NCBI RefSeq assembly: GCF_000614065.1
Contig: NZ_BAKG01000009.1
Location: 1 to 64,000 of the forward strand
Reading direction: 5' to 3'
Length of the DNA: 64,000 nucleotides
Source of the DNA: Prevotella dentasini JCM 15908
GTDB taxonomy: Bacteria; Bacteroidota; Bacteroidia; Bacteroidales; Bacteroidaceae
Every line of letters begins with the position of its first letter. Positions within the stretch are counted from its first letter, which is position 1. The notes beneath the pieces were generated by a model. The model was given only the letters and a program-made list of their open reading frames with translations, was not told the origin of the DNA and ran no database searches. Below are positions 9,624 to 11,662 of this stretch, piece by piece. Both the position numbers and the translations under genes were made by a program.

Positions 9624-9741
9624 TGTAGGGACAGACCTCGTGTCTGTCCGTTTCCGTCGGATGGCTTAGGCGTTTGTTCGGACAGGCCGTGTGTCTGTCC
9701 GCTTCAGGCGGGTGGGGTTAGGCGTTTGTTCGGACAGGCGC
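9624..9741. repeat. Family A repeats, partly decayed
   Basis: Elements lie at 9624-9650 (A-T type), 9679-9701 (mismatched GGACAGGC..GTCTGTCC) and 9731-9741 (fragment). The stretch TTAGGCGTTTGTTCGGACAGG occurs twice, at about 9666 and 9718, indicating a 52-base tandem duplication. The stretch 9613-10000 holds only repeats. Confidence 0.8.
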
Positions 9742-10002: not shown

Positions 10003-10033
10003 TTGACATCGGCCTCGGGATGTTGTACCTTTG
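10003..10033 (+). promoter_or_regulatory. Promoter upstream of the M15 peptidase/HU/smalltalk genes
   Basis: TTG at 10003-10005, 20 bases, then TACCTTTG at 10026-10033, an excellent fit to the Bacteroidetes consensus. The leader to the ATG at 10170 is about 130 bases, AT-rich and without a clear structure. Confidence 0.7.
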
Positions 10034-10169: not shown

Positions 10170-10631
10170 ATGATAGACTACGAGGAAAGACTTTCGGAAC
10201 ATTTCACGCTGGGCGAGCTGCTGCGGTCGGGAACGGCCATACGGGCAGGAATCAGGAACATACCCTCGGCCCATCCTGAAGACGGGCTGACCGACGAGGA
10301 GGTCAGGGAGAATCTGCGGCAGCTGTGCCTGCACGTGCTCGAACCGCTCAGGCGGCGCGTCGGGCGGCTGACGATAACGAGCGGATACCGGTGCAGCGCG
10401 CTGAACAGGGCGGTGGGAGGCGTGCCCTGCTCGCAGCATCTCAGGGGCGAGGCGGCCGACATATATCTGCCCAACGAGGCGGCCGGAAGAAGGTATGTGG
10501 CGGTGCTGCGGCAGCTGGCCAGATGCGACCAGATTCTGCTCGAGCCGTTGGGGGCGGTCAGGAAGCGTTGGCTGCACGTCAGCTACGGGCGAGCTGTCCG
10601 GCGACAAAAAGATGAAAACATAAAAAGGTAA
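10170..10631 (+). CDS. M15A-type peptidase (D-Ala-D-Ala carboxypeptidase-like)
   Basis: A 153-residue protein like the M15A C-terminal domain, a zinc peptidase fold that cuts D-Ala-D-Ala or peptide cross-links in cell wall. Visible family marks are HFTLGELLRS at residues 11-20, ITSGYRCSALNRAVGG at 70-85, SQHLRGEAADIYLP at 89-102 (zinc-ligand His91 and Asp98) and WLHVSYG at 137-143 (second His). There is no signal peptide, as in endolysins. It lies upstream of an HU-like gene and a smalltalk peptide, a trio repeatedly seen in Bacteroidales genomes. The biological role of that trio is not established. Confidence 0.8.
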   Translation: MIDYEERLSEHFTLGELLRSGTAIRAGIRNIPSAHPEDGLTDEEVRENLRQLCLHVLEPLRRRVGRLTITSGYRCSALNRAVGGVPCSQHLRGEAADIYLPNEAAGRRYVAVLRQLARCDQILLEPLGAVRKRWLHVSYGRAVRRQKDENIKR

Positions 10632-10730
10632 ATATATACACTAACCGGGGCATTGCCCCATATTCGACAATCTATTAAAAGCTATGCCTCGTAGAAGACC
10701 CCGGCTGCCGGGGAGAGGCACGAAAGAGTT

Positions 10731-11176
10731 ATGGCAATCAAGTATCGCATGTATCAGAGCACCCGTGAGGTAAGTTCAAGAACTATTGGTATGCCCGTCC
10801 CGTCGTGGACACGACCATCGGCGTGAGGGCACTGGCAGAGCGCATCAGCGACCGCTGCACGGTAACAGAGTCGGACATTCTGGCGGTAATCAGCGCGTTG
10901 GTGAAGGAACTCGCCTACGAGCTGAAGAGCGGACGCCGCGTGAAGCTCGACGGACTGGGAGCGTTCAAGCCCTCGTTCCACTGCATGGGCTGCAAGGAGC
11001 GCAAGGACTTCGTCGTGGCGAAGAACATCAGGAGCACCCACGTCATCTTCCAGCCGGAGACGCACAAGAGCGGGCCGCACACGATGTCGAAGTATCTGCT
11101 CGAAGGCGCGAAGCTGGAGGAGGTAACGGCCGTGAAGCCCGAGGACAAGGGCAAGGCGGAGCCTGCGCTTCCGTAA
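10731..11176 (+). CDS. HU-like DNA-binding protein (one frame break)
   Basis: A histone-like protein of the Bacteroidetes HU-related family, about 148 residues when repaired. It begins MAIKYRMYQSTRE and continues KFKNYWYARPVV, then the HU fold (TTIGVRALAERISDRCTVTESD, GRRVKLDGLGAFKPSF). The frame changes near 10770, where CGTGAGGTAAGTTC needs one G to give GAG GGT AAG TTC. The tail after residue 130 is Lys/Glu/Ala-rich. HU-like proteins bend and wrap DNA; the WYARP N-terminus and longer tail separate this subfamily from housekeeping HU. A GC-rich hairpin follows (11182-11220). Confidence 0.8.
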
Positions 11177-11181
11177 GCGGT

Positions 11182-11225
11182 GCCCGGCAGGCGTCCCCCC
11201 GCGTGGGGCGGCCTGCCGGCTTTCT
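11182..11225 (+). terminator. Terminator-like hairpin after the HU-like gene
   Basis: GCCCGGCAGGC (11182-11192) pairs with GCCTGCCGGC (11211-11220), followed by TTTCTT. The T tract is short, so some read-through into the smalltalk gene is likely. Confidence 0.5.
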
Positions 11226-11266
11226 TAATGCAGATGAGTAATAATATAACAATGGAGGAACCTATA

Positions 11267-11359
11267 ATGAAGAAAGATACGTGGAAGATGATTCTTCAGA
11301 TTCTGCTGACGGTGCTGACGGCCGTGTGTACGACGTTCGGCGTGTCGTCTTGTATGTGA
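11267..11359 (+). CDS. Smalltalk protein
   Basis: A 30-residue peptide beginning MKKDTWKMILQILLTVL and ending TTFGVSSCM. It matches the smalltalk family, tiny hydrophobic proteins of Bacteroidales that sit beside HU-like and muramidase/amidase genes. Residues 7-25 form one membrane-spanning helix; a Cys sits next to the C-terminus. The distance from the HU-like stop is 90 bases. The partner genes upstream make the identification firm despite the length. No function is known for the family as far as I am aware. Confidence 0.8.
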   Translation: MKKDTWKMILQILLTVLTAVCTTFGVSSCM

Positions 11360-11466: not shown

Positions 11467-11659
11467 TTGTAGGGACAGACCTTGTGTCTGTCCGCTGCGG
11501 TTGGATGGAGTTAGATGGTATTCGGACAGGCACGTGGCCTGTCCCTACTGTTGGTTGCGGAAAGTGCATATAGCGTTGTAGGGACAGACCTTGTGTCTGT
11601 CCGCTGCGGTTGGATGAAGTTAGGTGGTTGTTCGGACAGGCACGTGGCCTGTCCCTACA
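11467..11659. repeat. Two ~109 bp units, each a facing family A pair
   Basis: Pairs at 11467-11494/11523-11548 and 11576-11603/11633-11659. GGAAAGTGCATATAGCGT starts each unit (11450 and 11559), so a 109-base unit is duplicated. The first hairpin of each pair is the A-T type, the second the G-C type. The last element ends four bases before the stop codon of the minus-strand gene at 11663. Confidence 0.9.
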
Positions 11660-11662
11660 TCA

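Follow-up and report, generated by a model that had tools for sequence, protein, structure and literature searches.

Three short genes on the forward strand lie side by side in the window, by which we mean the whole 64,000-nucleotide stretch of DNA that was analysed. They encode a wall peptidase of the M15 type, an HU-like protein and a membrane peptide of the smalltalk family. This raises the question of whether the three form one unit and, if so, what that unit would do. The sequence-only reading had proposed that the trio recurs in Bacteroidales and that its enzyme and membrane peptide look like an endolysin/holin pair. Here we compare the residues, the gene order and the phage relatives of the trio, and weigh this proposal against its rivals.

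Genes and sequence features of the locus

The first gene (10170–10631, + strand) encodes a 153-residue, endolysin-like Peptidase_M15_3 protein, which scores 58.8 bits against PF08291 (cut-off 23.2) and has the endolysin family phrog_894 as its best phage family (110 bits). No signal peptide is seen when the N-terminus is read by eye, in agreement with the earlier description of a wall peptidase lacking one. The metal ligands of Peptidase_M15_3 enzymes are His, Asp and His, and H90, D97 and H136 are invariant across a seven-sequence alignment with phage enzymes. A single-sequence search for relatives of solved structure returns none; the profile of the seven sequences reaches 1lbu with an E value of 3.8e-11. 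In trimmed alignment rows, the strict two-motif pattern is present in all 7 tailed-phage enzymes, in 17 of 19 from trios, in 14 of 15 solo enzymes and in 6 of 15 microviral ones; most of the nine microviral rows that fail it had been cut short where the profile ends. The first motif is absent from the enzymes of L311 and L313, both of which lack smalltalk.

The third gene (11267–11359, +) encodes a 30-residue peptide with a single hydrophobic helix and a C-terminal SSCM. By NF033879 (49.6 bits, cut-off 24.7) and DUF6486 (40.3 bits, cut-off 22.7) it is a smalltalk peptide, as had been read from the sequence. The middle gene (HU-HIG, model HU_rel; 10731–11176, +) is the member of the proposed trio that does not stand intact. 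Its WYARP frame passes both TIGR01201 (72.2 bits, cut-off 68.6) and PF18291 (82.7 bits, cut-off 26.2), but the ATG at 10731 opens a different frame that ends at a stop 31 residues on, leaving no single open frame from start to stop in the window. The HU gene is open at this position in the three nearest relatives examined (L264–L266). ATG and WYARP thus stand in different frames, either through a genomic frameshift or through faulty assembly; with its HU frame broken, the copy of the trio in the window may be in decay.

The 2.55 Mb source genome holds a single smalltalk match, a single M15 match at E ≤ 1e-6 and 13 HU-HIG matches (10 above the cut-off); DUF4248 finds no match in it. Five of the eight window neighbours scanned are ordinary chromosomal genes and three have no Pfam family, and no phage structural or replication gene is found among the eight. 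A promoter-like TTG ... TAnnTTTG lies 5′ of the M15 gene (10003–10033, +), which may follow the Bacteroidetes consensus. Between HU and smalltalk, a hairpin is followed by a T-rich stretch (11182–11226, +); it is not conserved, and a terminator-scoring script makes no terminator call there. No Rfam family reaches its gathering score at the trio locus. The intergenic repeat words gggacagacc and gtgtctgtcc flank the trio on both sides (9627–9690 and 11470–11660).

An HU–smalltalk core with exchangeable wall enzymes

The M15, HU and smalltalk genes keep an identical order and strand in 14 of the 29 loci of the best M15 relatives in the genus. The other 15 have no same-strand HU gene in the flank examined, which is short in two, so the recurrence claimed earlier holds for the former loci and not for the latter. 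Relatives of the window M15 enzyme are present in 78 of 120 genus genomes, and the trio is annotated as adjacent genes in Prevotella nigrescens. Smalltalk itself is found at E ≤ 0.001 in 7 of 295 order-level, 185 of 399 family-level and 92 of 120 genus-level genomes sampled (6, 179 and 88 genomes, respectively, above the model cut-off), with up to 18 matches in a single genome. The libraries used list no function for smalltalk or DUF6486. A translated DNA pattern matched at least 120 stretches in a public genome collection, and the 80 titles among the matches listed are all from Bacteroidales or Bacteroidetes, Candidatus Minthosoma included.

An HU gene lies upstream of smalltalk in 38 of the 52 genome-contig loci having at least 1.5 kb upstream; L131 (2 bases), L196 (no smalltalk by our own model) and loci with short flanks are excluded from the counts. 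The gap between the two genes varies from 10 to 379 nt. A conserved terminator switch in this gap was considered and rejected, since a terminator occurs in only 6 of 34 gaps. Among 200 non-identical host peptides, W5, A18 and G24 are retained in 95, 98 and 98%, respectively. A Cys stands in the last three model columns of 166 of the 200, usually after a lipobox-like motif; many Bacteroides peptides end without Cys, as do all seven free-standing microviral peptides, so the lipobox Cys is not family-wide. The host pN/pS is 0.59, a value pooled over 171 pairs from 19 hand-picked loci with synonymous sites near saturation.

Four enzyme families occur near chromosomal smalltalk: M15_3, Amidase_2, a P5-type phage endolysin and DUF5675, the last of which perhaps acts on the cell wall. 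In Bacteroides and Parabacteroides examples, HU, smalltalk and Amidase_2 are accompanied by DUF4248 and by DUF3987/BT4734 or DnaB. In one other genus, the gene for a 141-residue protein sits between HU and smalltalk (L133 3536–3961; L134 3527–3952). No Pfam model matches this P5-type protein; it scores 139 bits against the phage endolysin family phrog_873, also matches PDB entry 7q47, ‘Endolysin’, and is matched by Bacteroides phage genes that bear an endolysin annotation. The P5-type gene is found between HU and smalltalk in L260 as well, after smalltalk in L187 and before HU in L207, and DUF5675 precedes HU in L195 and follows smalltalk in L024.

To express how often such an enzyme accompanies the peptide, we counted same-strand members of the four families in four partly overlapping sets of loci. 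They are present near smalltalk in 11 of 25, 1 of 18, 12 of 44 and 12 of 39 loci and absent from the remaining 14, 17, 32 and 27; a stricter subset of the 44 gives 3 of 19. The density per 100 kb near smalltalk versus elsewhere is 7.70 versus 0.61 (44 loci), 7.50 versus 0.22 (39 loci, 12 of them from a single genome) and 5.13 versus 1.35 (19-locus subset), a 4- to 34-fold enrichment in these three comparisons, which have long flanks; it is 14.75 versus 0 and 1.87 versus 0 for the sets of 25 and 18. The enzyme is therefore enriched yet optional, because its density is raised near smalltalk while most loci consist of HU and smalltalk only. At 27 loci without M15 or Amidase_2, 81 neighbour genes matched 75 Pfam families, of which the best 25 are listed, and therefore an unlisted wall enzyme is possible there; two of these loci (L133 and L134) carry the P5-type enzyme, which Pfam missed. 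HU and smalltalk form the core, and the wall enzyme is an optional, exchangeable part. This link of smalltalk to exchangeable wall enzymes is new here.

Other neighbours were also noted. Smalltalk stands directly 5′ of large repeat-type surface proteins, RHS/YD-like by eye, in L050, L054, L062, L119 and L125, and glycosyltransferase gene clusters adjoin it in L031 and L033.

Smalltalk in microviruses

A tblastn search with the window peptide gives weak matches in microviruses, the tiny ssDNA phages; tblastn is insensitive for short peptides, and a made-up consensus query returned nothing. In OR148991, an unannotated 29-residue smalltalk ORF follows the pilot gene, and an M15 gene lies elsewhere in the genome. 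Scanning the viral collection with a pattern yields one contig (L140), a 6.9-kb microvirus arranged as OR148991; the two share 66% identity in their capsid proteins and 26 of 28 positions in their smalltalk peptides. Some microviruses therefore encode smalltalk, which is new here. The sequence-only reading had called for a comparison with phage genomes and had named the lack of any link to phage genes as a ground for giving it up; the comparison does find such a link.

Two curated models and one of our own describe these peptides. Of 19 phage records, six have an NF033879 match above the cut-off and three more have one below it; two tailed phages have no match. DUF6486 exceeds its cut-off for four of the seven microviral peptides submitted; L294 and L308 are below both cut-offs and L304 is below that of DUF6486 only. 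Our own model was built from 26 seeds, and the hits used score 25.9–35.7 bits, compared with maxima of 11.1 bits for 23,222 reversed ORFs, 4.6 for 690 reversed microviral ORFs, 20.3 for 14,000 block shuffles of seven microviral peptides and 4.4 for 53 lipobox-like ORFs.

M15 is present in 15 of 17 microviral records; seven of these 15 carry smalltalk and eight do not, by our own model at i-E < 1e-6. Several of the 19 microviral records examined were selected through smalltalk itself, and L035, L036, L140, L339 and L340, picked in this way, are not counted for frequency. Among microviruses obtained by M15 similarity (L293–L296), one of four has smalltalk; among those obtained by the L294 capsid (L305–L313), eight of nine have M15 and three of nine have smalltalk at i-E < 1e-6. 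L304, obtained by the L035 capsid, has both. In L294, L305, L306 and L310 the M15 gene and smalltalk share 4 nt, the stop of the one lying across the start of the other, so that an enzyme of the phage endolysin type adjoins a small membrane protein. In L035, L140 and L304, smalltalk begins 32–41 nt 3′ of the pilot gene, away from M15; the ORFs of L035 (3707–3796) and L304 (3621–3707) are unannotated in both saliva microvirus records. The pN/pS values of five microviral pairs are 0.15, 0.39, 0.43, 0.36 and 0.24, and the microviral copies are under purifying selection. Across the 19 microviral records, HU is found in none, and Amidase_2, the P5-type enzyme, DUF5675, DUF3987 and DUF4248 have no match, compared with M15 in 15.

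A smalltalk-like start is joined to a lipoprotein-like tail in L339 (2054–2281; 28.1 bits by our own model) and L340 (5735–5923; 22.2 bits), and a weaker one in L036 (5536–5742; 13.8 bits by the curated model). These three records have no M15 match, and L339 is a partial genome. Other candidates were set aside. The smalltalk model gives no support to the short hydrophobic ORFs that L307, L309 and L311 carry at M15 or behind it, and the pattern match L262 contains no smalltalk ORF. L261 reaches 20.9 bits in a chromosomal-looking context, and the 17 stretches of the last viral pattern scan reach at most 10.4 bits. Three ‘Bacteriophage sp.’ records (L028, L029 and L030) are unverified fecal contigs and were discarded as phage evidence; by eye, the genes of L028 and L029 look chromosomal, and L030 carries a Bacteroides-type cassette. 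The window HU matches 13 records in the phage collection, all of them unverified fecal, and none of its relatives in the viral collection is confirmed.

The enzymes themselves do not follow the pairing. In a 56-row M15 tree, all microviral enzymes lie on one side of a branch with support 90/78. The window enzyme belongs to a group of ten from trios, supported at 100/94, and the remaining trio and solo enzymes interleave. With microviral and chromosomal enzymes apart in the tree, the pairings do not derive from a single recent enzyme transfer. A microviral M15 peptidase has been proposed as an endolysin exchanged between phages and hosts, and the parts of that article available to us describe an ORF of no assigned role beside 5 of 11 microviral peptidase genes, in passages that do not name smalltalk (Roux et al. 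2012, PMC3394797). The microviral peptidase described in those parts belongs to the same Pfam family as the window enzyme, which instead clusters with chromosomal trio enzymes. A term search of the main text of Krupovic and Forterre 2011 (PMC3091885) finds neither peptidase nor lysis. Within literature searches that most subscription papers lie outside, ‘Smalltalk protein’ appeared only in an expression table, in the portions of text accessible, and DUF6486 not at all. Searches of the same scope found nothing relevant on HU-HIG, no paper beyond Roux et al. joining microviral M15 endolysin, holin and Bacteroid, and none tying an amidase and a histone-like protein to the Bacteroides fragilis capsule and to phage.

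A proposed lysis cassette and its rivals

The anatomy of the trio, a signal-less M15 enzyme and a one-helix peptide, fits a lysis pair as judged from the sequences. Because smalltalk is also found in microvirus genomes carrying a gene for a wall-cutting enzyme, we favour, tentatively and at close to an even chance, the reading that takes smalltalk for a minimal holin-like lysis peptide of phage type and the trio for a phage-style lysis cassette on the chromosome. Smalltalk, whose 28–30 residues comprise a positively charged N-terminus and a single helix with many small residues, would insert into the inner membrane and permeabilise it. The signal-less wall enzyme would thereby get to the peptidoglycan; this enzyme would be M15_3 here and, elsewhere, Amidase_2, the P5-type endolysin or conceivably DUF5675. 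DNA binding or control of the cassette would fall to the HU-HIG protein, and in microviruses smalltalk would act as the membrane partner of the proposed M15 endolysin. Pore formation, lysis, a benefit to the host and the role of HU are what we infer from this picture.

The ordered recurrence of the trio, the gene overlap in four microviruses, the purifying selection on microviral copies, the raised enzyme density near smalltalk, the microviral smalltalk with M15 and the unrelated enzymes beside chromosomal smalltalk count for the cassette, and the last two bear out part of the proposed endolysin/holin pair. Against it, most chromosomal smalltalk loci lack a member of the four enzyme families, 8 of 15 M15-bearing microviruses lack smalltalk, none of the 19 microviral records has HU, no phage gene is found among the eight window neighbours scanned and the M15 tree does not unite microviral and chromosomal pairs. 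None of the matches of smalltalk in Pfam, PHROGs and NCBIfam is to a holin family, and a plain holin has no need of a lipobox-like Cys motif. The holin–endolysin cassettes of tailed phages likewise combine a small membrane peptide with a signal-less wall enzyme; however, smalltalk is only 28–30 residues long, and the chromosomal trio adds HU. If true, the cassette reading would give the proposed microviral M15 endolysin the membrane partner it lacks so far, and would suggest that dominant bacteria of gut and mouth carry lysis cassettes of their own. A bolder version, which we consider rather improbable, would rank smalltalk, as common property of microviruses and Bacteroidales, among the smallest holin-like lysis peptides, and make the HU–smalltalk units (up to 18 per genome, some with endolysins) a programmed release system for DNA, capsule or vesicles, or for a satellite-like element shipping HU-bound DNA.

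A serious rival or complement, although on balance unlikely, is that HU, smalltalk, the wall enzyme, DUF4248 and the DUF3987/DnaB-type replication genes belong to an old mobile or satellite-like element, spread and decaying in Bacteroidales and useless to the host. In the complete genome G730, HU–smalltalk units at several sites share about 90–96% identity over a stretch that reaches from about −950 to +100 relative to smalltalk, and in some of them HU is incomplete. In this genome, with its 18 smalltalk matches, the units (L095–L106) have the appearance of dispersed near-identical repeats. A contig end falls in the 500 bp upstream of smalltalk at 37 of 119 genome-contig loci (L141–L260), versus 10 downstream, the neighbours include DUF3987, BT4734, DnaB and DUF4248, and the HU frame is broken in the window. 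The order DUF3987, DUF5675, HU, smalltalk in L195 and HU, smalltalk, DUF3987, DUF5675 in L216 are apparent permutations; the two look as though derived from a circular element. However, the ordered trio is retained in the loci of 14 species, no match to a microviral capsid (MCP), pilot or Rep protein occurs in 267 bacterial loci (window excluded), and an integrase label, from a one-sequence model, stands beside one locus only. Such an origin can be compatible with a lysis cassette.

Smalltalk might instead kill or permeabilise alone, with the enzymes as optional helpers, an idea we regard as improbable. The phiX174 protein E is a small membrane lysis protein of a microvirus that blocks wall synthesis, small type I toxins act at the membrane, and microviruses are known for single-gene lysis. 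The commonest chromosomal form, HU–smalltalk without a recognised enzyme, and the length of 28–30 residues with a single helix suit such an action. Unlike these single-gene proteins, smalltalk is often accompanied by a wall enzyme gene, and both the M15 overlap in four microviruses and the enrichment of wall enzymes near smalltalk count against such a solitary action. Single-gene lysis of microviruses is discussed in the accessible parts of Roux et al. (2012, PMC3394797).

The C-terminal Cys and the microviral fusions to lipoprotein-like tails would allow for a lipoprotein-type action. Smalltalk would then amount to a lipoprotein signal peptide on its own, active in or beyond the envelope through its lipidated or released end, much as a peptide pheromone or the signal peptide of bacteriocin release proteins. 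The latter are tiny lipoprotein-like peptides tied to release and have a stable signal peptide; smalltalk differs in having almost nothing after its Cys. The Cys of 166 of 200 host peptides and the tails in L339, L340 and, more weakly, L036 point in this direction, but the terminal Cys is missing from many Bacteroides and all seven free-standing microviral peptides, and the 53 lipobox-like ORFs stay at or below 4.4 bits by the smalltalk model. We hold this explanation to be highly doubtful. Lastly, a chance neighbourhood of three unrelated genes, to which the unconserved spacing and hairpins between HU and smalltalk and the 15 of 29 M15 relatives without the HU–smalltalk pair could be ascribed, is very unlikely because of the ordered trios in 14 of 29 loci, the upstream HU in 38 of 52 and the enrichment of enzymes beside smalltalk.
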